Positions 1-52,726 of a stretch of DNA of 64,000 nt are shown here, piece by piece (position 1 is the first letter of the stretch; each line of letters begins with the position of its first letter). The notes under the pieces were generated by a model. That model was given only the letters and a program-made list of their open reading frames with translations. It was not told the origin of the DNA and searched no databases. This stretch comes from Rosa chinensis. Taxonomy: Eukaryota > Streptophyta > Magnoliopsida > Rosales > Rosaceae. The position numbers and the translations under genes were made by a program. Location of the stretch: positions 52,357,897 to 52,421,896 of the forward strand of contig NC_037088.1 in the NCBI RefSeq assembly GCF_002994745.2, given 5' to 3'.

Positions 1-457
1 GAATCATGTCTAACCGTTTGATTTATGACTGCTTGATCAATTTCTGTGTTATGACCTGTTGGAGAGGAAAGATCCCACATTAGAAAAGTGACAAATAAAA
101 TATAACTTATAGGTGGGTGGATCTCACCCAATTGTACCGAGGCCTTTTGTGATTAAAACCCAACACCTATCGGGTGGTTAAGTTGGGACAATATCGATAC
201 AATGGTGGGTCATGGGCCACGCTTGTCGCTGTTTAACATGGTATCAAAGCGGGTCGCTCTTCAATACGTCGTCATCATGGACCCAGATATGGGTTCATTC
301 ATTAATTGATTGGTGTTAAATTGGCCATCGGAAGTTTCCGATTGGATTATTGCCAAGTGTCCGATGTGGGCCTTGGATTGTTATGTGATTGGTCAAGTCT
401 CTAATGTGGGACTTGTGACCCGATTTCCAATGTGGAATCGAGTTTGTCAATTAATTC

Positions 458-489
458 CACGTGCATACCTAGCTCTAGGTATGCACGTG
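458..489. repeat. Perfect 15-bp inverted repeat before the TRIM polypurine tract (first unit)
   Basis: Arms CACGTGCATACCTAG (458-472) and its exact complement (475-489) are separated by two bases. They sit directly before the G-run that abuts LTR 2. The same hairpin recurs unchanged 441 bp later. Confidence 0.9.
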
Positions 490-898
490 AGGGGGTGTGT
501 TAGAGAGGAAAGATCTCACATTGGAAAAATGACAAATAAAATATAACTTATAAGTTGGTGAATTTCACCCAATTGTACCGAGGCCTTTTGTGGTTAAAAC
601 TCAACACCTATCGGGTGGTTAAGTTGGGACAATATTGGTACAATGGTGGGCCACTGGTCACGCTTGTCGCTGTTTAACATGGTATCAAAGCGGGTCGCTC
701 TTCAATACGTCGTCATCATGGACCCGGATATGGGTTCATTCATTAATTGATTGGTGTTAAATTGGCCATCGGAAGTTTCCGATTGGATTATTGCCAAGTG
801 TCCGATGTGGGCCTTGGATTGTTATGTGATTGGTCAAGTCTCTAATGTGGGACTTGTGACCCGATTTCCAACGTGGAATCGGGTTTGTCAATTAATTC

Positions 899-930
899 CA
901 CGTGCATACCTAGCTCTAGGTATGCACGTG
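899..930. repeat. Perfect 15-bp inverted repeat (second TRIM unit)
   Basis: This is an exact copy of the 458-489 hairpin one 441-bp period downstream, again directly before the G-run adjoining an LTR. Confidence 0.9.
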
Positions 931-1120
931 AGGGGGCGTGTTGGAGAGGAAAGATCCCACATTGAAAAAGTGACAAATAAAATATAACTTATAAGTGGGT
1001 GGATCTCACCCACTTGTATCGAGGCCTTTTGTGATTAAAACCCAACACCTATCGGGTGGTTAAGTTGGGACAATATCGGTATAATGGTGGGCCACGGGTC
1101 ACGCTTGTCGCTGTTTAACA

Positions 1121-2027
1121 TGACCCATTTGATTCATGATTAAAGTTCTGGAAATTTATTTTGGGCATTTTTTAGGTTTGCATGCAAAAAATAACAAAAA
1201 AAAAAGGAATGGAGGTGTAGTTAGTGAAATTATACCTCTAAGAGTATTTTATTTTTTTGTATGTGAATAATATAACTAAGGTTATTTGAGGAATTCAAAA
1301 GGAGCTATAGTGAGCAAATATTTGTACTTAAAAGCACAAAGGAGGTGGAAAGAGTATGAGATGTCAAATGCGCAAATTTGGAGGTCTCAATAGAAACTCT
1401 CTGGATTAAATGATTGTGGTCATATAATTTTATACATATTTATCATACTTATTTGTATTTATGAGAGAACTTTTTGTTGAGCTGTTAATGTCTTCACGAT
1501 TGACTGTTGTAAATTTGAGAGCTGCCGAGCTGGTATGACCATAGTTTATCGACTGTATCAATTACTAAGAAAAGAAGATGAATTATGTACGTTTAGGAGG
1601 CGGTGATGGAAAATTGAACATCTTTGCCATGCATTGCAATCAATATAAAGTTGTTCGGACAATCACAAGAGGCAAACTTAAATTATCACGGTGAGCATAA
1701 ACCTAAAAGACTTTTTGTTAATATTATTGACATGTTTACTCAGAATGTTATGATGGCATGTTTTATGCATATAATCAATGTTAGGAATTTTTCAACCGTT
1801 TAATTTGATGGAAGCTAAATTTATTAGTTGAAAAATTCATAACATCAACTACATTGCTTTTACAATGGATGTGTTATTTATGTTTAAAATTATTAAACTA
1901 TGATTGTGTTTTAATATGTCTTATAGACGTTAAGATTCAAATCTAAGGAAAGCGTATTAAATCATAAGACTACAAGACTACAAAATTATTTTGCATTTTA
2001 AAAGTTCATGTGTATTCAACTCGAGAG
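1121..2027. other. AT-rich intergenic DNA, no gene seen
   Basis: No long reading frame or recognisable element was found apart from the 3' copy of the TRIM target duplication. Composition is AT-rich with short homopolymers. Confidence 0.6.
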
Positions 2028-2191
2028 ATTATTCAAAGCATCGCCGTGCACTTGCACCAACATAAATGAATTGTTAGATTGCATTAAATACATTTTTTGT
2101 TTATTAAAAATAAAGTTGATAATAAATATCAAGGGTTGAGATTATTTTATAAGGGTTGAGTCACTTACACCGTCGGTGCATAGAATAATAC
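2028..2191. mobile_element. Short MITE-like element, copy 1
   Basis: About 164 bp bounded by imperfect inverted ends built on ATTATTC ... GAATAAT, with GCACC/GGTGC boxes inside. The same unit occurs in opposite orientation at 52727-52889, including the shared core AAGGGTTGAG. It has no coding capacity. Two independent copies in one window support a mobile family; the superfamily is unassigned because no clean target duplication is visible. Confidence 0.6.
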
Positions 2192-4489
2192 TCATGAGTA
2201 CTTATGTAGGATATGAAAGAGTATTTTCAAATCTTATTGCATTCAATTAAGATTTCAAATATCTATCCAAATCTGACGCTATTCAAAAGTTGATTTGGTG
2301 GTATCCAAAAGTTTAATGTTTTTTAAATATTCAATAAAATTCTTATTAGCCTACAATCAGAGCATGTATACGATCAAATTTTTGTTTTCAAAAAAAAATA
2401 GAAAAGTGGGTAGTTATTGCAAAAAAAAAAAATTAGTAGTAGTTATTGCAGAGAGAAAATAGTGAGAGAGAAAAGTGGAGATTATGGAATTTTTTTATTT
2501 ATTTAATTTTCTTAATAAAAATTTATTTTATAATTCTCCTATTTATCCTTGTAATTTAATTTATTCTCAAAGTTTTTTAATCTTTTAGGGTTAAATCTGT
2601 CAAAATTTTCAGTTTTGACTAACAAAGCCTCTATATAGATTATGGAGGATTTAGAGTGTCGGTTATAAATACCAAAACTCATAGAGAAGTTCACTCACCC
2701 TCAAAGAGATTTTGACATTCTTTCTTATTTAGAAGAGAGGAGATTTCAATTGAGACGAACAAAACTTTTTCTATTATCTTACCAACCAAGGTACTTTCTA
2801 ATTTTTTTTTTTTTTGTAAACTTGTGTATTCAACTTATTGATAAAATGGGAGTTGAAATGTATCCTACATAGCCATCGTGTGATAGGATATAGAGCTTTG
2901 CAAATCTTGACTTCAACAAGGTTTGAATCGTTTGAGATCTTTCATAGTAAAGTTCCATATTTCTGGCAATTACTAACAACACTTCCATTGTAAAAACATT
3001 TTTTAAATAAAAAATGTTGTTTATTTTTCACTCTATTTTAAAGGTTTGAGCTTTGAGTAAAACGGTTTAAGAAGTAAAGAGGAAAAATCCCTGTAAGTAG
3101 GCACAATGATGAAAGGAACATCAAGTTCTAGTTAAAGGGTTTACTAAGAATGATTACTATTTTAAGTTGTGGTTTTGAAATTAACAGTGTTTTGGGTTTT
3201 TTTTGTCTGGTTTTGGTTTTTTCTTGATATCATCATAAAAAAAGAAGAAAATGGAAGCATAGTCTTTGATTCCCTCTGTTCTCTTCTCTACGGCTAATGC
3301 GTACGGCCACAGTTCACAATTTGGTTTTTTTTTTCTTTCAAATAACAAGTCAAACTGGAGGGTCCAAATCGTAAATAACCATTAGCCACGAATCCACGAT
3401 GTCATATTCTTAACCGCACCATGGCCTCAGTTCAAAATATAACCTGAAGCTTTGAGCGACCACATAAGAAGAATTTGAAAAGCAAAAGATCCCAAAATTC
3501 TTCCATTAAAGCGAAAGAGAGCAACAGTTGCTGACCGGTGCACTCATCAGACCCATAAATTCCTTATAGTTTCTTTGACAAGTTTTTTTGTGTTACTTTG
3601 GACTTTGCATTGCTTTGTTTCCAAGCCAGCCTAGCTATTGCTGTGTCCTCATTTCCTCTCCATGTTCTTGGTTGAACTTCAAAGGGTCAGTGCCTTTTCA
3701 CTTCAGAAATGTTTTGAAGAGTTTTTGTTTTTTTTTGTTTTTTTTGTTCTAGGTGTTGATGATAATTGACATGTTTTGTTTTATTTTGTATGATAGTTCT
3801 TTATTGCAGTGTGAAGATGTGTCATTTAGTTGAGGTTGAGTTTGTGTTTGCTTAATTTGATTGGAGACTCTGTATGTGGCTCAGTTTTACTTCCAAGTTC
3901 TCTGCTTGATTTGTTTGCAGACTAGTCCTGTTCTCTCTCTCTCTCTCTCTCTCATGGTATGAAGCTACCTCTGGTTGATTGAGTTGAAGAATTAGTGAAA
4001 AGAAGACATTTTTTTGGCTTGCAGAGGAGAGTAAAGTTCAGTTCAATTTCTTTGAACAGTAAGACTTTATTATTATTATTTTTATTTTTATGATGAGATT
4101 TTTTTTCTTGTATCAGATTTTTGACATTATGGTTTACAGCTTATTACATTGCTTTTCCACTTTTGAATTATCACTTCCTATTTCCTAATCTGAGGATTTA
4201 TGGTTCATGCTCTTCTTTTAGTTTATTAATTTTTTTGGCCAAGGTGTCTGCTGAAGTTTCTACATGTTCTTGGATAGTTCTGTAGGTATCTGAGATGCGT
4301 TTAAGAGTTTTTAACTTATAATTTTGGTTGAAATTGGGACTCCAGCTTTTATATTTATTTTTATGGTTCGTGCTGTTCTGAAATTTCTTACATGTTTTGG
4401 TTAATACTGTAGGAACCTGACATGGTATTCAGAGAATTTTAATTGAGCTTTCATTTTGGGTGCAATTCGAACTCAGAAATTAAGTACCA
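2192..4489 (+). promoter_or_regulatory. Upstream region and probable 5' UTR of the Ca2+-ATPase gene
   Basis: No protein-coding frame of note. It holds poly-T runs, a CT microsatellite at about 3932-3952, and T-rich stretches typical of plant 5' UTR introns before the ATG at 4490. I cannot fix a transcription start; a TATAAAT stretch near 2665 is a weak candidate. One or more 5' UTR introns are likely but unproven. Confidence 0.35.
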
Positions 4490-8214
<3,725 letters not shown>

Positions 8215-36156: not shown

Positions 36157-36960
36157 TGTTTGAGCCCAAAAGTAATTTTGGCAAGATCCTTTAGTGGATT
36201 TAGCACAACGGGCCGATACCTGCGGCCCAAAAATAAGCCTGCTTGGGATTGGGTTACAGCTTCGCCCATTCCATGGTCCATAAGGGAAACAAAACCTTAT
36301 TAGAGTCAAGTAGCAGAGATTGAATAGGAAACTTCAATCAATAATCCTTCTATAGCAAGGAACAGTCGGAACCCTAGTTATAAATACCTGGTTTCAAGGA
36401 CAAAGAAAGGACCTCTCTGAAATCAATCAATCCTAGCAATTACAAAGCCTCCCCGGAGCAAACCTTCAACCTCGTTGAAACCCGGTGACCGCGCGCCAGT
36501 CCTAGTCTCTCCAAGAGCAGACTGTCAGCATCACCAGATCAACCCGGCAACCGTACTTCCAGTCCCAGTCTCTCCGCGAGCCGACTGCCACCGAGACTCT
36601 CTCGACCAGCGAAGCAAGGGTAACGCCCTCGCAACCTAGCGAAGCTAAAGTCACGCTTTAGCAAAACCCGTGCTTTCTCCAAACTTCCCGGTGATTGCTC
36701 TGCTCAGCCTACAACGTTGAGTATCGATTCGGTGACGCGAAGAGATTACATCCAAAGTCCTTATCCGTAAGGCAAGAAGTCCTTTCTCGGAAGGCTAGAG
36801 AAGAACCTTGTGGCGAGGTTGGTGCTCTCCTCGTTCACAGCGCTTGAAGAAGAAGTCAGGTCAAGGGACTCCCCCGAAGACTGCACTCCACGGTGCTGAC
36901 ACTCCCGCACACACGCTCAAAAGAGATAGTTTGCACGCCAACTGGTTTTGGAGCCAAACA
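36157..36960 (+). mobile_element. Probable solo LTR of a gypsy-type family
   Basis: It begins TGTTTGAGCCCAAAAG and ends TTTTGGAGCCAAACA. It resembles the LTR at 50044-51193 in its ends, in GCTAAAGTCACGCTTTAGC, GAGTATCGATT, GGCGAGGTTGGTGCTC and AGTCAGGTCAAGGGAC. A TATAAATA box is at 36379. No matching second LTR or coding region is adjacent and no clean 5-bp duplication is visible, so it is either a solo LTR with a decayed flank or a truncated end. Confidence 0.65.
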
Positions 36961-39010: not shown

Positions 39011-42000
39011 ATGAACCAGGAAATGAATGGGGTTGAAGCTGAGAGGTATCAGAAGGAGAATCTCAGCAATGGTCATCATGTTCAGGAGAAGATAGACTAT
39101 GTGTTCAAGGTGGTGGTTATTGGAGACTCAGCTGTGGGGAAGACTCAGATACTGTCGAGGTTTACTAAGAATGAGTTTTGCTTCGACTCCAAGTCTACTA
39201 TTGGGGTTGAGTTTCAGACCAGGAGTGTCACTATTAGAGGGAAACTCATCAAGGCCCAGATCTGGGATACTGCTGGCCAAGAAAGGTTTGATTCTTCTCT
39301 CCCTCTCTGTCTGTCTCTCATTTTGATCTTCAAAAGCTAGAAAGGATTTTAATGATCATGATCTTTATGATTCATATATATCTGGTATAGATTACTGTTA
39401 CTTTCACAGTTTCACTTATTAAGCGAATTCAAAATAGTTTTAGTACTGTATGACAATAATCAGGTGAAAAATGCTCGACTAGCCAAAATTGCTGACCAAA
39501 TTATATTTTGGAACACATCTTTGTTAATAACTAATACACGAGATCTAGGGCGAGCACGATCTGAAACACCAACATTTCATTTGATGCAAAATGTATTAAG
39601 CAAATTTATGAAGTGTAACACCACCTACATTGGATTCGAACCTGATTACTACCTAGTAAAATTCAACCTCTTCTGCATGTCCTATGTTTCAGCTATAAAT
39701 GTAGCTATAACAACATATGAAAATATTATAATTATAACCGACATGCTTGCTGTAATATTAATTGATATTAATCTCAACTCAACTACGGTATATTGTGAGC
39801 TAGCAAAGTACGATATTTTATTGTAAAGTAACTTTCTTACTTGTACTCAGTCATAAAAGATCTCTTACTTGTACTAACTTTTTGAACACATGTTGAGATC
39901 TCGACCGTTAATTTTAAACTCTATATGAGTAGATCACTTATGCAAAATTTTAGCTAAATTAATGGTCGTTGAGGTATCAAACTATATTAAATTAATGAAC
40001 GAATCAAATATGTCCAACCTAAACCTTTCATACTTATAATTGTAAATCACAGTTATGAATGTTTTAACGATCATCAATTTGACTGAAAATTTACAGAAAT
40101 GATCTACTCATATAGAGCTAAGAACTGAATGGTCAAGATCCCAATATGTGATCGAAAAATTAGTCTAATAAGCCATCCCTTAAAATAACAAAAAAAATAA
40201 TAATAATAATTCCCCACGGGCCCTGTTTGATATCCGTAGCAAGTTAATCTTTCTCAATTTTTGTTTTATTTGTGCCATAGATGACAGACATTCACGTTCG
40301 TAGGGTTCTGATTTTGAGTGGTTGCTGTAGTTATGAGAACATGAGTTTTGGGCCGAAGGGCTCCCTGTATTTTCTGCATCAGTACCACCAACTGTACTGT
40401 ATGAATGCATTGCAACTGGAACTAGAGCCTAGAGCTAGCCAACCTCAAAATTAATGAGTAGGACAAAATGCATGTTCTTTTGCATTGAATTGGGCCAAGA
40501 ATAATGGGAGAGGATCCTCTCCTGAGCTAGCTTTTAACCTGAGCTGCCTGAGCTTTGAAGCTGATGATGCCACGTGTCTAAAACAACATCTAAAGGCTCC
40601 TCTTGAACTCAGTTTGGACTTCTTCTGTTTTTTCATCAACACTCAAAGTACAATAGGAAGGAAGACTCTGCCCTCTCTCTCATCTTCATCGCAGCCATCA
40701 ACCACTCCAACCTATTTCCTTACACCATTTCTATTAATTGAGTATCAACAAAATTGGACCATCTCTCTCTCAAATTGTTGCAATCCACCTCTCTCTCTCA
40801 TCTTCATCCGGCTACAACTTCCCATTCACAACATGGAGAATCAAATCAAACAGAGAGTAGAGAACCCAGATCAGGTCTCAAAGAAAAAGCTTCAAAAGAT
40901 TCAATTTTTATCTTCTATTTCGTTTGATATTTAATTCAAAATACTGTCTTAATTTGGTCTGGATACTGGGGTAGAACCGTAGAAGAGGAGAGATTACCAA
41001 GGGTAAAATCTGAGATTCGATTTTCATTTAGATTTGATTTTGCTGAGGTTGAATGCGAAGGATTGTAATTTTGGATTGTTATTTTTTGGATCTGTATGAA
41101 AGTGAAGAGAGCAAGGAGGAAAAAGAAAAATCAGAATGATCATGAAGAAAGAGAGGTTTAGTGAGATAATCGAGGAGGAGGAGGACTGCAGCTGATTAAA
41201 CTGCAAAAGATGGAATGAGTTGTTGAAGAAGAAGAAGAAGAGAGATAGAAGAGGCAGAGAGAGAATATCAGCCGTTGATTAAGCTACAAAAATTGAAATA
41301 AATACAATAAAAAGTTGGAGCCATTAGATGTGAGTTTGGACACGTGGTGGCTTGTAATGAAAAGCTCAGGCAGCTCAGGTTAAAAGCTAGCTCAGGAGAG
41401 GATCCTCTCCCAAGAATAATACATACTATGGTGAGAAGATGATGCTAAAAATAATGAGAATGTATTCAGTACACCAACGTGTATTCGCACTAATAAGAGT
41501 AGGCGGTTGATGAATAACATAAAGTATATTTTTTATTATTACAAAGAAAGATTACATGTAAATATCAACAGTTGAGATCTCTTGAATCTGCTAGTTCACT
41601 TGCATCAGCAGTACATAGAAGAATTTCTAAAAAAATAACTTGTAATAAACATTTCGTTAACATAACATGCGAGATTATTTGATCACAGGTATCGAGCTGT
41701 TACAAGTGCCTATTACAGAGGTGCACTCGGGGCAATGCTGGTATACGACATCACCAAGAGGCCGACGTTCGATCATGTGGCTAGGTGGGTCGAGGAGCTC
41801 CGGGCACATGCGGACAGCTCGATCGTGATCATGCTGATCGGGAACAAGGCTGATCTCGGGGATCAGAGGAATGTTCCGACTGAAGATGCAGTCGAGTTTG
41901 CTGAGGAGCAAGAGCTGTTCTTCTCTGAGACATCGGCCTTCAGCGGCAACAATGTGGACAGTGCATTCTTTAGGGTACTAGAGGAGATATACAGTAGAGT

Positions 42001-42133
42001 GACGTCTAAAAAAGCACTGGAATGTGGGAATGGGAAGAAGCCCATTGATGGGATTGGAGCAAAAATTGATGTCATTTCTGGGTCTGATTTGGAAATTAGC
42101 GAGATGAAGAAGTTGTCTGCTTGCTCTTGTTGA
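39011..42133 (+). CDS. RABA3: Rab GTPase, RABA3 type (2 exons)
   Basis: A small GTPase expected to act in trans-Golgi/endosome to plasma-membrane or cell-plate traffic. Exons 39011-39285 and 41689-42133 are joined in phase 2, giving 720 nt and 239 aa. G-motifs are complete: GDSAVGKT (38-45), switch I KSTIGVEF (61-68), WDTAGQER (85-92), NKAD (144-147), ETSA (172-175). The C-terminus ends CSC for double geranylgeranylation. The extended N-terminus (about 30 residues) and the [10 protein letters not shown] segment near the C-terminus fit Arabidopsis RABA3. The intron falls right after GQER, the conserved RABA site, but at 2403 bp is swollen by two transposons. CDS looks functional. Confidence 0.93.
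39858..40170. mobile_element. Foldback MITE in the RABA3 intron
   Basis: Inverted arms of about 110 bp (about 39868-39985 and 40055-40165) share CTCTATATGAGTAGATCA and GAAAATTT-type blocks. The arm core (ATGATCGTTAA, AAATTTTCAG) matches the MITE at 35436-35835, so both belong to one diverged superfamily. Non-coding. Confidence 0.72.
40506..41411. mobile_element. Non-autonomous MULE with perfect 51-bp TIRs in the RABA3 intron
   Basis: The terminal inverted repeats at 40506-40556 and 41361-41411 are identical over 51 bp. The 9-bp target duplication AAGAATAAT is perfect (40497-40505, 41412-41420). The outermost 17 bp contain a 16-bp palindrome around GGATCC. The 906-bp body is CT/GA-rich, with plus-strand and minus-strand frames of no known homology and no transposase. 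Nine-bp duplication and long TIRs indicate Mutator-like. Perfect ends imply recent insertion. Confidence 0.93.
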
Positions 42134-44400: not shown

Positions 44401-44566
44401 TAAACAACAGCAAGCATGGCATGTGATCTACTATTGTGCTGATATTGTCTTGACTCTTTCATGTTTTAAGAGTTGTGTTTTAACTCAAAAGAGTTCGGTA
44501 CGATTAAGAATGAGCTCGGAACAATTATTAGTGAGTCACAAACTTAAAAGTTATATTATATATTAT

Positions 44567-46030
44567 GACTAAATTCAGTTTGCCCTCTCCAACTTTGGAG
44601 CAAATATCAGTTTGGTCCCTGATTTTTTTTTTTTAATCATGATGGTCCTTGCACTTTCATTTTCTTTCACGCGAGTTCAAAATTCAAATTTGGCACGAAA
44701 AGTGATGTCAGGTGCTGACTTGACACCGACATTATGACCCATTTTTCGAACTTTGACCCTCAATTTGAACGAAATGTCTAAACTACCCCCTTGAATATTC
44801 TTCTCTGCAAGATTCTTCATCTTCTTCCTCTGCACGATTCTTCATCTTCTTCCTCTTGTTCATCCTTCCTGCAAAAAAATATTCACAGTTCATCAAATTG
44901 TGATAGATTCCATAACAGAAACTCATCAACTAAGTTTAGTTGAACATCAGAAACTACGTAATGCCAAAAGAACCACAAAACAAAAAGCCTATTTTACACA
45001 AAAACAATGCTAAATAGTGTCCTAAAATACAATGGAAATACAACCCCAATAGCACCTTCATCACAAATTACACCACTAATCCCAAAAGTTCACAATTTTT
45101 CCTCGAAATTCAAAACTCTAGAAGCTATTTCAAACAGTAAAGCAGCAAAATTACCCATACCAGGCTTCTATACATCTCAAACTCCACAAGACAAACTAAG
45201 ATAGCAACTTCAACCAAGAACAACACAATAGTAAGAAATGCCCAGAACCAAATTTGGCCAATCAAATATAAGAACAACGAAATAGACAGCTGGAATTCAA
45301 AAATACTCAATTGGGTACATGAAGAATAAACCCTCCTCCAACTGGGTACGAATTCACTGGAATTGCTGTGCATACTCCTCTTTCCCCACAGTGGCTTTTC
45401 ATTTGCTTCTTCCCAAGTTTGAGAAACTAAGTGACATTGAAACCTGAACTGGGTTTTTGTTTTGGATTCGTGTTGTTCAATTTGTTGTAATGGCAGACGA
45501 GCTTCAAGAACGACTCGTTCTCTTCTTGGATTGCTGACCCAAACCTTGATGAAGTTGAAGATGCGAAGATGAAGATGATGTCGGCGCGAGCGGTGAGGGC
45601 AGACCTGTGCAAGATGAAAGGCGATGGAGGAGGGCGTGCAGACATGCGGTAGCCGGAATCTCAGGTTTGATGGAGGACGGAGGAGGATTGAGAAGATTGA
45701 GAAGTTGTTGGATCGATTTGGTTTTAGGCTTTGCAAATTTGAGAGAGAGGCAAAGTGAAGCAAAAAATAGATAAGAAAAAAAAAAGAGAAAAGGGGGGGA
45801 AATTAGAAATTAGATTAAATTAGAGATGTCTATTTTGCCATTCTTAGTCTGAAAAATGGGCCCTAATATCGGTGCCAAGTCAGCACCTGATGTCACTTTT
45901 CGAGCTAAATTTGAATTTTGGACTCGCGTGATAGAAAATGAAAGTGCAAGGACCATCATGATTAAAAAAAAAAGTTAGAAACCAAACTGATGTTTGCCTC
46001 GAAGTTAGAGGGGGCAAACTGAATTTAATC
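44567..46030. mobile_element. MULE family member 1, about 195-bp TIRs
   Basis: Inverted ends of about 195 bp (about 44567-44760, 45838-46030) begin GACTAAATTCAGTTTGCCC and GATTAAATTCAGTTTGCCC. They contain the shared blocks CATGATGGTCCTTGCACTTT and AAAAGTGA. Flanks read ATATATTAT at the left and, with a 2-bp offset in a TA run, ATATATTAT at the right. A minus-strand frame (45125-45763) spans the interior without known homology. Same family as the neighbour at 46189. Confidence 0.82.
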
Positions 46031-46443
46031 ATATATATTATCTTTTTGTTAATAGTTTAATATGAGATCTTCACCCTCCACCATGACCGATTCATATGAC
46101 CAAAATTTGTATTTTTTTTTCTTCTCTGTAGTGTACACTAACTTTTAAATTGCTCGAAAGTGCAGAATTTAGAGAAAGATTTGATAAAGGACTAAATTCA
46201 GTTTGCCCCCTCCAACTTTAGGGCAAACATCAGTTTGGTTCCTGACCTTTTTTTTTAATCATGGTGGTCCTTGCACTTTTATTTTTCATTACGCACGTCC
46301 AAAATTTAAATTTGGATCGAAAGATGACGTCACAAGCTGAGCTGGCCCCAACATGAGGGCCCATTTTTCAGATTTTAGAAGGACAAAATGGACATTTCTA
46401 AATTAATCTAATTTCTAATTTTTTTCTCTAATTTTCTCTATTT

Positions 46444-46448
<5 letters not shown>

Positions 46449-46503
<55 letters not shown>
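46449..46503. repeat. (CT)n microsatellite
   Basis: About 27 CT units inside the left arm region of the larger MULE. Confidence 0.95.
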
Positions 46504-46506
<3 letters not shown>

Positions 46507-46551
46507 GTTCACACCTCACACGCTCCCACTTATCCACTGAAATTCTCCACC

Positions 46552-46668
46552 AAACTCCGGTCGACTGCGACGCTTGCAGATGTTTCACCAAAGATGGAAC
46601 CGCACCGCTTGCAACAATGATGTTCACTACGTCCTTTGCCACTGAACGTCTCGACTGGAGCTTCACCA
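46552..46668 (-). pseudogene. Captured armadillo-repeat fragment (ARIA/ABAP1-like)
   Basis: The minus strand reads VAKDVVNIIVASGAVPSLVK then HLQAS, matching one ARM repeat of plant BTB/ARM proteins such as ARIA or ABAP1. About 39 codons, flanked by unrelated MULE sequence, no start or stop context. A captured exon piece inside a MULE, not a gene. Confidence 0.6.
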
Positions 46669-46834
46669 GTAGCACTCCCAAACCGAAATGGCCGGCCCCC
46701 AAATCTTCTTTCTACACCCAAAACTTCTTCTTTCTGGGCACATCCAAATCACAAGCCTCCCAAAAGAACAGACTTCCCAAAAGATAACTGTTTGGACCCA
46801 AAATGAGCATTTTGGCTTAACAAAGCGTGTCCTC

Positions 46835-46985
46835 AAGATGGGAAGGCTCGTACATCATCTATAAAATCTTAGGGAAAGGAGCTTTTCATCTCAAGGACCT
46901 GGATGGAGATGTCCACCATAACCCTATCAATGGCAGATACTTGAAGAAATATTTTCCCAAGGTCTGGGACTCGGAGCAGTCGTAG
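46835..46985 (+). pseudogene. C-terminal tail of gypsy pol
   Basis: The plus strand reads GSYIIYKILGKGAFHLKDL, then NGRYLKKYFPKV and a stop (TAG at 46981-46983). This matches the segment at the end of plant Ty3/gypsy polyproteins after integrase. It abuts an LTR stump, so everything 5' of it was deleted. Confidence 0.7.
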
Positions 46986-47193
46986 ACAGTTTCTTCGCAT
47001 AAGACATGGGGGGCAATTCTAGTGTTCCTACACTTGCGAAGCCCATTCATGAAGGCCTGTTTTTGAGGCCCAACATCGTTTCTTCGCTACGCCTAGCAAC
47101 ACTAGGGGGGAAACACTACACAATACTAAGCTGAGTCAGCGGCTCCGGAAAATTTTTACAATACTAAGCCGGGTCAGCGGCTTAGGAAATTTT

Positions 47194-47868
47194 TTACAGC
47201 TTTGTCTCTTCTCTCACAGAGAAAACACGTTCGCGGGAAAATAGGGTCGAGTCGTAAGAGTTGAGGCTAAGCTCAAGGGAAATGTGAGAGTCACCGTTGT
47301 AGCCGCCCCATCCACAGGAGTAGTAGCTGTAGCCGCCACCACCCTCGGAACTAGTCTTCATGTTGCCAAAGATGTCCTCATTATGCATGGGGAACAGAGG
47401 AAGGGTTTCAATCTCCGTATTCATAGATCCATAACCACCATAGTTCCCCATCTGCCCTTTAAAAGCAATCATCACATCAGCTGAAGAAACAGAAGCAGAT
47501 GCAGAAGATCCGAAGTTAATATACTGATCCTCAGGTTTCCAATTGGTACCATTACCATTACTAACAAGCCCTGATTTTTGCATCGGCACATGAACATGCG
47601 AAGTAGAACTCTTCTTCTGTTTCTCCCGAGCCCTTTGGTTCCTAAACCAATAATAGACGTTCTTGCTCTCGACCGATCCGTACCATCTCAGGTGGAGATA
47701 GATCCTCTGAATCTGCTCTACAGTTGGGGACCTAACTCCCTTGTTGTAGTCAAGCTCCTTGAGGATTCTTATCTGATCTGTAGTGGGAATCCACCTGGTA
47801 CTGCTCTTCCTCCCGGCTACTTTGTTGCTTCCTCCATCCTCGGTTGGTTGCCGGGTTTGTGGTTCCAT
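47194..47868 (-). CDS. WUSCHEL-like homeodomain protein, intronless, inside an LTR retrotransposon
   Basis: An uninterrupted 224-codon frame, ATG at 47868, TAA at 47196-47194. The homeodomain (about 22-86) has the WUS/WOX hallmarks: TRWIPTTDQIRILKEL, an enlarged helix1-helix2 loop (NKGVRSPT) and recognition helix VYYWFRNQRAREKQKK. This keeps the W-F-x-N-x-x-A-R core, while the usual WFQNHKAR is changed to WFRNQRAR. A WUS box TLPLFPMH (155-162) and a C-terminal EAR-like SLELSLN (197-203) follow; in WUS these mediate TOPLESS-type repression. The protein is shorter than Arabidopsis WUS (292 aa). WUS genes normally have introns, whereas here homeodomain, WUS box and EAR motif are continuous. It lies antisense to pol, between pol and 3' LTR of a gypsy element. 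The intact frame suggests recent capture or some constraint. Whether it is expressed is unknown. Confidence 0.82.
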   Translation of the reverse strand: MEPQTRQPTEDGGSNKVAGRKSSTRWIPTTDQIRILKELDYNKGVRSPTVEQIQRIYLHLRWYGSVESKNVYYWFRNQRAREKQKKSSTSHVHVPMQKSGLVSNGNGTNWKPEDQYINFGSSASASVSSADVMIAFKGQMGNYGGYGSMNTEIETLPLFPMHNEDIFGNMKTSSEGGGGYSYYSCGWGGYNGDSHISLELSLNSYDSTLFSRERVFSVREETKL

Positions 47869-48200
47869 TGGTGATGGGTTGAGAGAATGCGAGAATTGAA
47901 GAGTGGTGATGATGAATGATTAAGAAAGATTGTTGTTAGAAAGATTGGGGTGGATGAAATGGTTTTGGGATTAGGGATTTGGGTTTATAATGAGATATAG
48001 GCATGAAATAACCGAACGGTCTTTGAGGAGGTAACTATTCCATTTTCAATATTATCTTCTCACGATGGGGAACCGAACGGTCTTCGAGGAGGTAACTGTT
48101 CCATTTTAAATGTTATCTTCCAAAGGTGGGGAACCGAACGGTCTTCGAGGAGGTAACTATTTCATTTTCAATATTATCTTCTCACGGTGTAGTTTTCCAA
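47869..48200 (-). promoter_or_regulatory. Upstream region of the WUS-like ORF: TATA-like box and three 61-bp repeats
   Basis: On the minus strand TTATAAAC occurs at 47990-47983, about 115-120 bp before the ATG. Further out, three direct repeats of about 61 bp (starting near 48012, 48073, 48133) carry CCGAACGGTCTTCGAGGAGG; degenerate copies occur near 49400-49460. They belong to the retrotransposon, and could supply promoter elements, but that is inference. Confidence 0.5.
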
Positions 48201-48365
48201 GAGGTTTGAGTTGGGGCCTATATTTGGGGCCTTACAAGACATAATTATTGGCTCCTCACGGATAAAGTGGCTTTGCGGCCAAAAGAAGTACATTCATTAC
48301 AAAGCCAAAAGTGGTTAGAATACAAAACAGGAATCTTCAGATATCTTCTGAATCTTTGCTCAAAG

Positions 48366-48640
48366 TGGAGGCAGCTTTGGAATCCAACGTCGGGTTGAGC
48401 CGCGCCATTATCCCAAGGAGGGGCAGACTTCAGGGAAGAAAAAGAGGAGAAACGGAACCCCCGTGCCCCCTTTACATGGAAGCGGCAGAGGAATCCAACA
48501 TAGGCTTGGCCAACGCTATCATCCACGAGAAGGGGAGACTCCAGTGAAAGAAAATGGAGCATCCAATCCCCCTCAATTGGAAGCAGCTTTGGAATCTAAC
48601 GCCGGGTTGAGCCGCGCCATTATCTCCTGGAGGGGCAAAG
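48366..48640 (+). repeat. Three diverged direct repeats of about 101-111 bp
   Basis: GGAGGCAGCTTTGGAATCCA-type starts at 48366, 48477 and 48578, each followed by TTGAGCCGCGCCATTATC-like sequence. They are part of the gypsy region between pol and the 3' LTR, possibly remnants of an extra ORF on the minus strand (48245-48809 region). Confidence 0.7.
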
Positions 48641-50043
48641 AGTGAAAGAACCGAATATCAACTTGAATCTCGGCACCCTCTTCGCCCGTGGCAGCCACCA
48701 TTCTCTTAGCATGAAGTATGGGAATGGCCATAAAATGGCTCATACCCATCACTTCCGCGAATCCATGCTCTCCCTCCAAGATTCTGTCAATGTTCGGAAG
48801 AAAGAGCATGAGTAGAGGGCGACCACCAAAGCCCTTCTTATCTGGAGGACTCGATCTGGTCTGATTCTAGAAGGAAGGGGTTCGAGGAAGGGTCTTTGGC
48901 CTCAAAGTGGCTTTCCTCCCTTCCCCGATTTGCTCCGCGCGTAGGATTATGACAAAGATGATCTCACATGATCGTGGATCCCACACTCGGAGCCCCCTCA
49001 CATTTCTAAACCAATCTGAAGCCTGGCATTGCCGTTGCAGAATTCCAGAAGGCCGAAACAAGGGGTTGCCTGAGATTACACCATAAGGCCTAACCCAGGC
49101 TTGAGATTACGCCATAAAGCCTAAAATTTAGAGGCTAAGGGCCATTTCCTGAGGGGAAGATTTGTGAAGAAGGAGGAAGAGAAGCAAAGATTGAAAGGCC
49201 ATTGTTAAGGATCTGAAGCTCAGAAGAAGGTTCTTGATGTGAACGTTCCCATCCCCAAAACACAACTATTTATAGGGACTTTAGGCAAATCCTCACCCTT
49301 GGATGGATGGTTAAAGAGTCAAACTGATATCAGTAAATCGAGATTAGTGATTCCAAATCTCGGGAAAAAAGGGACTAGTAGCATGTGAGGCTCCAATACC
49401 AAACGATTTTCGAGGAGAAGGAATTAATACCACGTGAGAAGACCGAACGGTTTTCGAGGAGGCCTATAGAGATTGGCCAGCGAAGCTCAATTGCAAGCAA
49501 AGTTCCTCCATGTAGAGGTTCGCCGCAATGGCACCAGCTTCGGCCTGAGTGGCCCGTTCTCTTATACGGGCCAGGTTGTGGCCCATTTCTTCAGAACAGC
49601 CAAAGGTTCATCAAGTTGGGCTTTTTTTGCAGCAATCGCATTCTCAACAGAGAACCAGCAAACAAGGCAAATACTTGCTGCTATATACATGGCGAAGTTA
49701 CCACCAAGGAAGAGAAGGATCCTCATTCGCAATCAAAAGTAGTCTCCTTCGCATGGGGGGCATGCTAAAACTCTGATCTCCTATAACCTGCCCAAGTTTC
49801 ACCAATTCACTGCATACCAGACATCAGATACATGGGGGGCAATAAAGTTGGCAAAGAAAGCGTCAGTTCATGACAAAGGCAATCAGATTGTGGCATTCAA
49901 GATTTATGGCCTATTTAGAGGCCTATATGGAATCAGTCAAGCCAATACAAGTGGCTTTGGAGCAACGATATTATAAGAGAAGTGCTGATTCAAGACCTCT
50001 TCAGTCAAGATGAAGACCTTTGACTTCGAGGTCTGGGGGGCAA

Positions 50044-51193
50044 TGTTTGGACCCAAAATGAGCATTTTGCTAAACAAAGCGTGTCTTAAAGAAATTGAGC
50101 CAATGTCAGTGGCTCAAGCTATATATATATATTGTCAAAAAGTTTGAAATATATTATTTAGAGGCTAAATAAAGCCTACTTGCAAAATGATGGAAGCATG
50201 GAAATGAAAAGTCAACTTGAGCACATTTTCCTACTTTGGCTAGGAGAAACTGAGCTAAACAATGAAGGAGGGGTGGCAGACTGACCAAAAGAAATCTAAA
50301 TGAGCCAAAACTTTCTAGATTCATTCTAGACATCCTAAGAATCATTTATTATGAAGAGTGCAAGAGCTAGTTTGGAGTGGAAAACCTTCAAACAATCAGT
50401 CCAATTTTCTGAAAGACAAAACTGGAAAACTGGACCTACAGGGAGTCCAGCAGCGTTTCTGGCCCAACCACTTGGAAGTAAGCTCTGAAATTTTTCCAGA
50501 ATGATCTACACTCATGATGGATCATTTGATATGAAGAAGTCGAAGACCCATTCGGAATTCGTAGTGGAGATATAGTTGAAGGAATAAAGGAGCCGAAAGT
50601 GACTCAAAATCACTCCAAAACTCATCATTTTTATCCCCATAATTTAGTGCTCCACCTCCACCTCCACCTCCAATTAGTGCTCCACTATCTTCAATTAGTG
50701 CTCCACTATCATTTGTTTAAGGCCAACCACTTTGGCATGGTAGCCTATAAATAGAGGTTACAATGAAACAAGACAACACACAATTCATCACAACAATCTC
50801 TAAGATTATCCAAGCCTCTCTAGATCAACCCCTCTCCTTCTCTTACCGGTAGTCACACTCCAGTCTTAGTCTTCTCAGGAGCCGACTGTCAGTGCCACCA
50901 AACCCTCCAACCAAGCTAAAGTCACGCTTTAGCGAGTTCTCCTCACTTCTCAGTGGTTTTCGCTCTGCTCGATCTACGACGTCGAGTATCGATTGTGATT
51001 TTGAAGAAGCTCAGTAAAAGTCCTCGCCACGAGGCACAAAGAATCCCACGACGAGGTTGGTGCTCTTCTCGTCCACAATCGCTTGAAAGAAGTCAGGTCA
51101 AGGGACATCCCCAACGACCGCACCCGAACGGTGCTGGCACGCCCACGCAAGAAAAGAGACGTTGACTAGCTCAAGAAAAACTGGAGCCAAACA
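50044..51193 (+). repeat. 3' LTR of the gypsy-type element
   Basis: 1150 bp, TGTTTGG ... CCAAACA. It contains tandem CACCTC units and a duplicated AATTAGTGCTCCACTATC (about 50670-50712), a TATA box at 50746, and the GCTAAAG/CTTTAGC hairpin (about 50915-50933) shared with the solo LTR at 36157-36960. Confidence 0.85.
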
Positions 51194-51942
51194 ATAACGA
51201 AACCAACAGAGCACGTCTCTGTGATTTTTTACCTGAGGATGGATCAGTCTGCGGCGGCGATCAGAGGTCAAGAGTGCCCCACCTGCAGGCATAACCGTTG
51301 TTGTTAGGGCTTTCTAGCCCGTCGGCCTCCAACTCCGATTTGGTCATCGCCCACAGAATACGACCACCTCTATCACACCCCAAACCCTCGCTCGATTCCT
51401 TTACTTTGCAATTTGATTGGGCTTCGGGTCTAGGTTTTCGTCCCCGGAGCTCGACTCGGAGGTCATGGAGAAACTTACCGGGGGTGACATTTGATGGAAT
51501 TGAGTGAATGTGAGAAATTAGGGCTTTAATCGAGTTTGGGGAGATAGAGAGAAGGTTGTGCCTACGCCACCGATTTTGATCGAGGAGGAGGACGAGGAGC
51601 GAGACGACGTGGTGTGGAGTTTCAAATCAAAGGGAGGTGGAGGTGGAAGTGGTAGAAGGGTTTTCGTGGTCGTCGATCTAGAGAGGAAGAACAGAGAGAG
51701 TAGAGAGAAAAATTAGAAATTAGATTAATTAAAAAATGTCCATTTTGCCCTTCTAAAATATGAAAGGTGGGCCCCCATGTCGGGGACAACTCAGCCTGTG
51801 ACGTCATCTTTCGATCCAAATTTAAAGTTTAGATGTACGTGATGAAAAATAAAAGTGCAAGGATCATCATGATTAAAAAAAAATATCAAGGACCAAACTG
51901 ATTTTTGCCCCAAAATCAGAGGGGGCAAACTAAATTTAATCC

Positions 51943-52726
51943 TTTGATAAAACAACTATATTGCCAAACCGTCAATTAATTCTCTTTAAAATTTGTTGCT
52001 GTGGGGAATATCTAGTGACTAGTGAGGCAAAGAATAATTGGGTACGTTATCCATGCTGGCATGGGAGGGCAAACCGACGAGCCTTGAAGTTGTAAATGAT
52101 GATGATGAAATTGAAAGAACCCAGCTGGCCTGAGTGCCCGACTCAGAAACATCCTTCTGATAGTTGGATACTTGGATAAATCCCATAATTGCCAAACTAG
52201 TGTAAATACTCATTGCCTACCTTCCCAGAAAGAGGTCGTCGAATATATATTGATTGCTGACAGAAAATGAGCAAGACAGGTCTTTATTGTAATATGGAGA
52301 GGACCATAAAATAAGTAATTGTGATGGAACACCAACTGGTTAGGTGTTTTGTAAATTGATCGATTCAATGAGGCAGTTATGATGAGAAAGGAATAAGAAA
52401 TCGATGAGACATTGAACCAGCTTGCTTCTTCTCATAATGTTTACTTCAAACTCAAAGTTACTCGAATGACTGAGAAAGCTCAATACATGAACTAATTACA
52501 AGGATAATATTATTACTAAATTAGCTTTCTAAAAAAATTGAAAATGGTATGTAAAAATGATGAAATCTAGTCCGTGGTGGGGTTATCTAATCGAATCTCT
52601 ATGTCTTCAAGAGTTTATTCTCATTTAATACTTTAGTTCTAGAATTTAGAGAAGTAATTAAACTAGCTATTTTTATTTTTGAATCAGCAACCCAAAATTG
52701 AGTTTTAAGTTATTCATAAATTGGAA
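51943..52726. other. AT-rich spacer, nothing recognised
   Basis: Begins with the right copy of the MULE target duplication. No domain, RNA gene or further element seen. Confidence 0.5.

Follow-up and report, generated by a model that had tools for sequence, protein, structure and literature searches.

The window analysed here, a 64,000-nucleotide stretch of the Rosa chinensis genome, most probably contains a Tat-lineage Ty3/gypsy retrotransposon, reduced by deletion, whose lineage captured the spliced mRNA of the host WUSCHEL (WUS) gene and multiplied it in antisense orientation; we assign this reading of its anatomy and origin a probability of approximately 85%. Among the hallmarks of LTR retrotransposons, the target site duplication (TSD), polypurine tract (PPT), and 3′ LTR are present in the window, the 5′ LTR is a remnant only, and the primer-binding site (PBS) has been lost. 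Both copies of the ATAAC duplication (46,784–46,788 and 51,194–51,198) were located around the element proposed in the first-pass annotation (46,789–51,193), together with its 1150 bp 3′ LTR (50,044–51,193, plus strand; TGTTTGG...CCAAACA). The PPT GGTCTGGGGGGCAA (50,030–50,043, plus strand) directly precedes this LTR, homologues of which are found at L032:7280-8525 and L033:6401-7778. The 5′ LTR comprises only approximately 50 bp (46,789–46,838, plus strand; 92% identity to 50,044–50,092), because it has largely been lost, as have the leader, gag, and the greater part of pol. The pol tail (46,839–46,985, plus strand), which by frame reading is the C-terminal end of the integrase frame, stops at a TAG codon; the same residues (YIIYKILGKGAFHLKDLDGDVHHNPINGRYLKKYF) close the integrase frame of L012, in agreement with its earlier designation as a gypsy pol tail. 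Three tandem 61 bp repeats (48,010–48,192) lie upstream of the WUS ORF, and units resembling them are present in many other copies. The end remnant of a second antisense ORF region is retained at 49,463–49,620 (minus strand; approximate limits from by-eye comparison with L031:1722-2948), and in L031 this region comes after a plant mobile domain (PMD) ORF. The whole LTR element is nested inside a MULE-like element (46,189–51,942) with terminal inverted repeats of approximately 245 bp, which is flanked by the 9 bp duplication TTTGATAAA (46,180–46,188 and 51,943–51,951).

The WUSCHEL-like ORF is intronless, comprises 224 codons (47,194–47,868, minus strand), and runs antisense to the element. Its homeodomain (residues 24–84; 47,617–47,799, minus strand) matches PF00046 with an E-value of 5e-8 and the solved WUSCHEL homeodomain 6ry3 with an E-value of 7e-25, and the residue following WF is Arg, versus Gln in host WUS. 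Two motifs were read directly from the minus strand: the WUS box TLPLFPMH (residues 155–162; 47,383–47,406) and the EAR-type repression motif SLELSLN (residues 197–203; 47,260–47,280). The uninterrupted frame, the WUS-class homeodomain, and both motifs had been described at first pass, and all were confirmed. On the basis of the homeodomain, WUS box, EAR motif, and tree placement, the ORF is predicted to encode a WUS-clade WOX protein, the final 18 codons of which are element sequence beyond the homology to host WUS.

The host WUS gene contains two introns of 86 and 335 bp. One element copy, L059, aligns with positions 230 to 1327 of the spliced host transcript at 95.2% identity with one gap and crosses both junctions. 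The introns are exactly absent in L059, and the element copies are processed, mRNA-derived forms of host WUS. In seven copies, the homology ends inside the transcript at positions 1326–1328. The spliced form of L059 and this common 3′ boundary therefore indicate capture through mRNA, as proposed at first pass, where a spliced WUS-family transcript was thought to have been taken up and moved by a gypsy element. The window copy matches transcript positions 307–955 and 1161–1327, with outer limits of homology at 47,250–48,005 (minus strand, converted from L001 coordinates); it differs slightly close to junction 1, and the stretch surrounding junction 2 is missing from it. In a WOX tree including the genome's own WUS, the host gene and 16 sampled element rows grouped together apart from Fragaria, Argentina, and others (support 95/90). 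The capture probably happened once, in the Rosa lineage, as judged from the sequences compared.

At least 174 matches to the window ORF were found in the R. chinensis genome. At every one of the 29 next-best loci, the ORF is adjoined by element sequence that extends for 113 bp or more on one side; the upstream element flank measures at least 200 bp in 25 of them and the pol-tail-side flank at least 100 bp in 23. The location of the ORF inside the element is therefore not a matter of chance. Further elements with the same antisense ORF thus exist, as anticipated; what the first pass did not recognise is that this is no single retrogene, the window copy being a deleted member of a large family that spans three or more LTR types. 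Host genes commonly leave intronless retrocopies, and an independent processed WUS pseudogene might have dropped by chance into a single element. This explanation is vanishingly improbable and was ruled out by the flanks common to the 29 other loci and the 3′ boundary common to the seven copies.

The architecture of the captured-WUS carrier is best seen in the copy at C1:56.35-56.37 Mb, in which gag (4e-12), protease (1e-6), RT (3e-29), RNaseH, RVT_3 (2e-20), and integrase (4e-10) domains accompany an open antisense WUS ORF of 249 aa and an antisense PMD ORF (1e-16); its LTR parts are 96.8% identical across 650 bp. In the Tat-type carrier, the antisense WUS and PMD ORFs are neighbours in the interval separating pol from the 3′ LTR, and PF10536 (plant mobile domain) is located in L031:62-1327. 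The domain order is RT, RNaseH, and RVT_3 (PF13456) in L032, then rve in L012. An additional RNaseH between RH and INT is the rule for the Tat lineage in excerpts of PMC6317226. Judged on the relatives L032 and L012, the element belongs to the Tat lineage of Ty3/gypsy, with the window copy contributing its integrase tail only. A PBS was found in L032, L034, and L069, and TSDs were found in L034, L038, and L069/L071.

Two further LTR types (groups D and E) also bear the WUS ORF in antisense orientation, with LTRs that are 99.6–99.9% identical and TSDs of their own. The D type includes L034/L035 (TSD CTACA; LTRs 99.88% identical) and L038 (TSD GCATG; 0 mismatches between LTRs in 1666 bp). In the E type (L069–L071; TSD GTTAA), the LTRs measure 3259 bp and are 99.6% identical, and the PBS and PPT lie on the strand opposite to the ORF. 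RT and integrase were not found in the examined copies of groups C (L033), D, and E, and in those of D and E, WUS was the sole ORF with a recognised domain among those searched. In L033, positions 1–3000, read in one frame with X at stops, yielded no PMD and no family; Pfam searches found no family in 1310–1750 and FapA alone (E 0.11) in 5018–5902, and DUF1664 alone (E 0.095) in the 176-aa sense ORF of L034. The D and E ORFs retain homeodomain, WUS-box-like, and EAR-type motifs, with a dS of approximately 0.5 between the two groups and 0.51–1.06 to host WUS.

Across 23 ORFs, which were picked for open frames, the pooled omega was 0.52 (LRT 53.9). The D and E ORFs gave an omega of 0.35 (LRT 54.2), and one D–E pair gave 0.13–0.34 by bootstrap, clearly demonstrating purifying selection. 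Groups A and B, the window's own lineage, gave 0.75 (LRT 2.2), which is not different from 1. The gag-pro and RT of the A and B kind of element gave 0.18–0.33 in comparisons of at least 150 codons; constraint on the A and B WUS ORF is, by this comparison, weaker than that on genes belonging to the element itself. The dN/dS calculation proposed at first pass has thus separated constrained D and E ORFs from a window lineage with no significant constraint. WUS is a conserved accessory ORF of the retroelement family, with constraint in D and E and none significant in A and B.

There is an appreciable possibility, short of probable, that the captured ORF is a functionless passenger whose frames are open only through recent amplification from a few masters. 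The omega of groups A and B, the selection of the tested ORFs as open, stops in all seven close full-length relatives of the window copy, and the silence of most clade I–V members in one expression data set (PMC11405225) would fit such a passenger. It is countered by the constraint in D and E, which holds for the D–E pair despite a dS of approximately 0.5, by the occurrence of the same antisense cassette in three LTR types, and by the WFxN, WUS-box-like, and SLEL[SN]L motifs kept in 23 of the 23 selected ORFs. Since the omega of its lineage is not different from 1, the window copy itself is most likely a relic and probably inactive. Within its set of eight closest full-length copies, only its frame is open, each of the other seven (L002–L008) having at least one stop; this could suggest that the host has adopted it as a functioning WUS paralogue. 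Such co-option is highly improbable, considering the insignificant constraint, the lack of CTATAAATA upstream, the nesting in a MULE-like element, and the altered C-terminus and homeodomain residue.

Returning to a conserved accessory ORF, we tentatively propose, at less than even odds, that transcription from an antisense promoter yields a putative nuclear repressor, an accessory factor that might drive the host cell towards, or keep it in, a stem-cell state and thereby raise the element's odds of entering the germ line. Several observations weigh against this proposal: CTATAAATA occurs within 450 nt upstream in only 9 of 34 copies, and the window copy lacks it; the homeodomain residue after WF differs among copies (Q, V, R, or G); and RT and integrase were not found in the examined copies of groups C, D, and E. 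Published data in which 359 of the 364 rose WOX clade I–V members were almost unexpressed during rooting (PMC11405225) point against a function. WUS autoregulation through LTR sites was also considered, using five WUS-type patterns, five element stretches (one being 47,869–50,043), and shuffles as the reference, and no convincing enrichment was found. The best results, uncorrected for 25 tests, were TTAATG in the L032 LTR (3/100 shuffles) and TAATTG in the L034 LTR (6/100), and a 40 kb control (10 shuffles) was itself high for CACGTG, TGAATGAA, and TGAATGA. Alternatively, antisense WUS transcripts may yield small RNAs or decoys acting on the element or host WUS, a role that is distinctly unlikely. 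Antisense aORF transcripts are discussed as possible dsRNA sources in excerpts of PMC7264820, and L059 is approximately 95% identical to the host transcript. However, an RNA-level role does not predict protein-level constraint in D and E, and these ORFs, at a dS of 0.51–1.06 from host WUS, are distant for cross-silencing.

Host genes are known to be transduced by LTR elements, as in maize Bs1, and by retroviruses carrying oncogenes. Like these, the rose elements moved spliced host sequence; they differ in that the captured sequence lies antisense, exists in many copies and in three LTR types, and is under purifying selection in carriers devoid of RT and integrase. By analogy, these LTR retrotransposons with a putative accessory stem-cell regulator might represent a plant counterpart of the retroviral oncogene, in which the cassette moved among three LTR types, always antisense, D and E forms with added DLN-type motifs would promote or prolong stem-cell fate wherever the elements are active and thereby favour germ-line transmission, and carriers lacking RT and integrase would spread with WUS as the sole recognised gene; we regard this broader picture as rather unlikely.

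Closer relatives are the Tat aORF-3R elements (Grande gene23, RIRE2, and Retand), which, according to excerpts of PMC7264820 and PMC11963269, are likewise gypsy elements with antisense ORFs between pol and the 3′ LTR. Those ORFs carry TRP28, SMC, or no known domain, whereas the rose ORF carries a WUSCHEL-type homeodomain. The Grande antisense ORF has its own promoter and a nuclear product, and the origin of Tat aORFs is described as mostly unknown (both in excerpts of PMC7264820), in contrast to the identified host gene of the rose ORF. PMD occurs in 57% of Ogre elements in excerpts of PMC6317226; as far as these go, Ogre and the rose element share a PMD ORF, an extra RNaseH before integrase, and gag-protease and RT in separate frames, and the rose element differs by its WUS ORF. 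The PMD ORF agrees with membership of the Ogre subclade, which is a candidate placement alongside Retand. A host-type domain has also been recently fixed in an orchid Ty3/gypsy lineage bearing an AlkB-type m6A demethylase, for which enzyme activity was shown (excerpts of PMC9289625), whereas the rose WUS ORF is described here from its sequence. In the same survey, which covers 121 angiosperm genomes, YgdH (LONELY GUY family, cytokinin) is reported in Citrus elements and B3 in Aegilops; homeobox is not named among the extra domains of the survey section, and the word is absent from the main text as available. Among the papers listed in our literature search, none, as judged by its title and the start of its abstract, deals with a retroelement carrying WUS; the search covered neither preprints nor most subscription articles, and novelty is therefore not proven.

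In a 2024 paper, 381 rose WOX family members were taken as genes, with whole-genome duplication proposed; the authors found no collinear pairs among them and called for more data, and "transpos" occurs 0 times in the main text (PMC11405225). The D-group ORFs match the clade motifs SIMEQRG.YHQ.I.TLPLFPMHGEDILGNMKTTSEGG and SHISLELSLNSYRDADMA of that study. Captured-WUS elements would probably account for most of the 381 rose "WOX genes" when these are taken as a set. These findings offer a mechanism for this published puzzle and caution that rose WOX studies may mix transposon ORFs with genes. Furthermore, the rose case gives the Tat antisense ORFs one clear host origin, and the recruitment of meristem regulators by retroelements becomes testable.

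The WUSCHEL-like ORF lies on the minus strand at 47194–47868 and encodes 224 aa with a WUSCHEL homeodomain. It is carried by an LTR element (46789–51193) with ATAAC at either flank, a polypurine tract, and a 1150-bp 3′ LTR. The 5′ LTR is a remnant of about 50 bp joined directly to the end of the integrase frame, and the window copy therefore lacks the leader, gag, and most of pol. This element is nested in a larger one, whose inverted repeats are accompanied by a 9-bp duplication and which we take to be MULE-like by the 9-bp duplication rule. A second MULE-like element occupies 44567–46032, with the 9-bp duplication ATATATTAT at 44558 and 46033, and its inverted ends are related to those enclosing the LTR element. 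Elsewhere in the window, pieces at 36496–36906 share 73–83% similarity with the LTR's 3′ portion and are perhaps an old solo LTR, and an ORF at 41735–42133 presumably resembles part of a Rab-type GTPase.

The Rosa chinensis genome (515,083,735 bases, 53 contigs; the window is C1:52357897–52421896) was searched with the window ORF, yielding at least 174 matches, with 150 of the 682 candidates scored. The copies were sorted by sequence into groups A (window type), B, C, D, and E, which are our own labels; the next-best 29 loci (L002–L030) belong chiefly to A and B. Upstream of the ORF, 25 of these 29 loci share 200 bp or more of the window element's non-ORF sequence; on the pol-tail side, 23 share 100 bp or more; and each of the 29 has 113 bp or more on one side or the other, the weakest sharing being at L010 (113 bp) and L011 (131 bp). 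The ORF has been amplified in the genome. Among the stretches of 0.8–1 kb (L039–L058), LTRs were sought only around L045, which lies in L033, and L050, which lies in L069. By hand count, contig C2 carries about 30 of the 47 listed match rows with identity up to 57%; this excess parallels the 226 of 381 rose WOX genes placed on chromosome 2 in PMC11405225. An LTR element should not favour one chromosome; one possibility is that the excess reflects the cultivar's hybrid ancestry.

The full gene plan is visible in the element around L012, assembled from pieces L036, L031, L012, and L032, each searched separately. One LTR lies at L032:7280–8525 and the other, partial, at L036:4045–4707 (96.8% over 650 bp); the outer end of the 3′ LTR was not found in the pieces examined. 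The element encodes a 1431-aa gag-protease ORF, RT-RNaseH-RVT_3, and then integrase, and it carries in antisense a plant mobile domain (PMD) ORF and an open WUS ORF of 249 aa, which shares a tree row with the annotated protein P0003. According to PMC6317226, an additional RNaseH domain, placed after the usual one and ahead of integrase, is the mark of Ogre/Retand elements within the Tat lineage, and Ogre is where PMD occurs most often. The group C copy L033 has the LTR type of the L012 element and a gag piece; a similarity search of it gave no RT or integrase match.

In group D, the element at L034/L035 spans about 9 kb, and each of its LTRs measures about 1.89 kb (99.88% identical over 1634 bp and 100% over 257 bp); it has the target-site duplication (TSD) CTACA and a different primer binding site (PBS). 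L038 has LTRs with no mismatches over 1666 bp and the TSD GCATG, and L037 resembles it, with no visible TSD. No RT or integrase similarity was found in these elements, and the L034/L035 interior (two ORFs and ten further stop-to-stop frames searched) gave a Pfam match from WUS only. All retain 14 residues of the gag start, and, besides WUS, about 380 bp at 91% is common to L034:4911–5287 and the L012-element leader (L032:6811–7191). This leader, shared with the full-plan element, suggests that D elements may be mobilised in trans. The E copy around L050 (C3:5820095–5829349; pieces L071, L070, and L069) has 3259-bp LTRs, 99.6% identical over 2168 bp, and a GTTAA TSD at either end. The PBS-like GTTTGGTATCAGAGC, which we take to be of the tRNA-Met type, adjoins its left LTR, and a purine tract precedes the right LTR; the WUS ORF, the longest frame of the 2.7-kb interior, lies on the strand opposite to their direction. 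The E LTR gave no match to the window-type or D-type LTR at the cut-off used, and a 237-bp stretch outside WUS, upstream of the ORF, is common to E and D. Since tRNA-Met is not used by non-chromoviruses, as stated in PMC6317226, the E-type carrier could derive from a chromovirus, with no relation to the Tat lineage. Given the differing LTRs of the window/L012, D, and E carriers, the antisense WUS cassette is present in three LTR types.

A gene model based on Fragaria WUS gives the host WUS gene (C2:11711808–11713125, minus strand) three exons, of 406, 110, and 384 nt, separated by GT-AG introns of 86 and 335 nt. The copy L059 matches the spliced host transcript from 230 to 1327 at 95.2% with one gap, spanning the junctions at 856 and 966. 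Host homology stops at transcript positions 1326–1328 in seven copies (L059–L064 and the window), about 24 nt short of the coding-sequence end; it ends at 1322 in L006, 1313 in L012 and L033, and 1323 in L034. The spliced match and the common 3′ boundary indicate that spliced mRNA was captured, probably in a single event. Had template switching joined two sense RNAs, the sense orientation would be expected, not the observed antisense one. In the tree, Rosa host WUS groups with the 16 element rows that were sampled, of which five are R. rugosa sequences, apart from Fragaria, Argentina, and other WUS sequences (95/90), so that, if the root lies outside, the capture would postdate the split of Rosa from Fragaria and Argentina. 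When the host gene was left out and the tree widened, the 34 Rosa rows formed one clade (100/97), and the short retro-type WUS proteins, where named, are all from Rosa among the best 120 of 261 and the best 120 of 182 matches. The Fragaria protein P0025 (174 aa) has terminal residues resembling unspliced intron 2. At the host locus (L065), an insertion upstream of the ATG, bounded by the repeat ACCTCTCTGTCAACTT and bearing a run of T, splits the 5′UTR region and by eye looks like a SINE-type retroposon.

Selection was estimated for 23 ORFs picked for being open, with the null model tried at three kappa values only. Omega (dN/dS) was 0.52 for all 23 (LRT against 1, 53.9), 0.75 for A+B (2.2), 0.67 for C (4.4), and 0.35 for D+E (54.2). 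Pairwise means between D and E were 0.24 overall, or 0.20 for the homeodomain alone (one-pair bootstrap 0.13–0.34), and the A–B value was 0.70 (one pair 0.46–1.12). The D and E ORFs are under constraint. Compared with the L012 element, control omega values for gag-pro were 0.18, 0.25, and 0.32 in stretches beyond the B copies L016, L021, and L018, and those for RT were 0.27 and 0.33, with a third, of 27 codons only, at 0.11. The corresponding WUS ORF values of 0.86, 0.49, and 0.70 exceed these controls; the WUS ORF in group B is therefore under less constraint than gag and RT.

The WFxN, WUS-box-like, and SLEL[SN]L motifs are kept in all 23 ORFs. DLNF-type repeats, which we take to resemble EAR motifs, number zero in the host and A/B (6/6), one in C (7/7), and three in D/E (10/10). 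The homeodomain position following WF, a contributor to DNA specificity, is occupied by Q in the host, D/E, and most C copies, by V in group B and in two copies of C, by R in the window, and by G in L026, L059, and L062. In the 450 nt preceding the ATG, CTATAAATA occurs in 9 of 34 copies, at 119–310 nt, and TTATAAA in most of the others, as in host WUS; the window copy has TTATAAA only, and L004, L010, L011, L017, L024, and L033 have neither. CTATAAATAG is absent from the host WUS locus (3.6 kb, sense strand).

For the captured and amplified ORF, we propose a role in which antisense transcription would yield a nuclear repressor, whose stem-cell effect would bring a gain to the element. We assign a probability of roughly 35% to such an accessory repressor benefiting its element, and an equal one to a passenger ORF with no function. 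As such a protein would work on the cell and not on its own RNA, any advantage to a carrier without RT is most readily explained through cell-lineage fate. PMC11405225 leaves the cause of the large rose WOX family unexplained, counts 170 WOX genes in R. multiflora and 105 in R. rugosa, finds no collinear WOX pairs within the rose genome, and describes clade I–V members as almost unexpressed in rooting (359 of 364); the rose WOX motifs quoted there match the D-group element ORFs. Neither WUS nor homeobox is named among element contents in the examined portions of PMC7264820, PMC11963269, PMC9289625, and PMC6317226, and a WUS-carrying retrotransposon was not found in print in the literature searched. 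The anatomy and origin of the element-borne ORF are firm, and the function suggested for it is hypothetical. It constitutes a real, well-supported case of a host stem-cell regulator turned into a retrotransposon accessory ORF.
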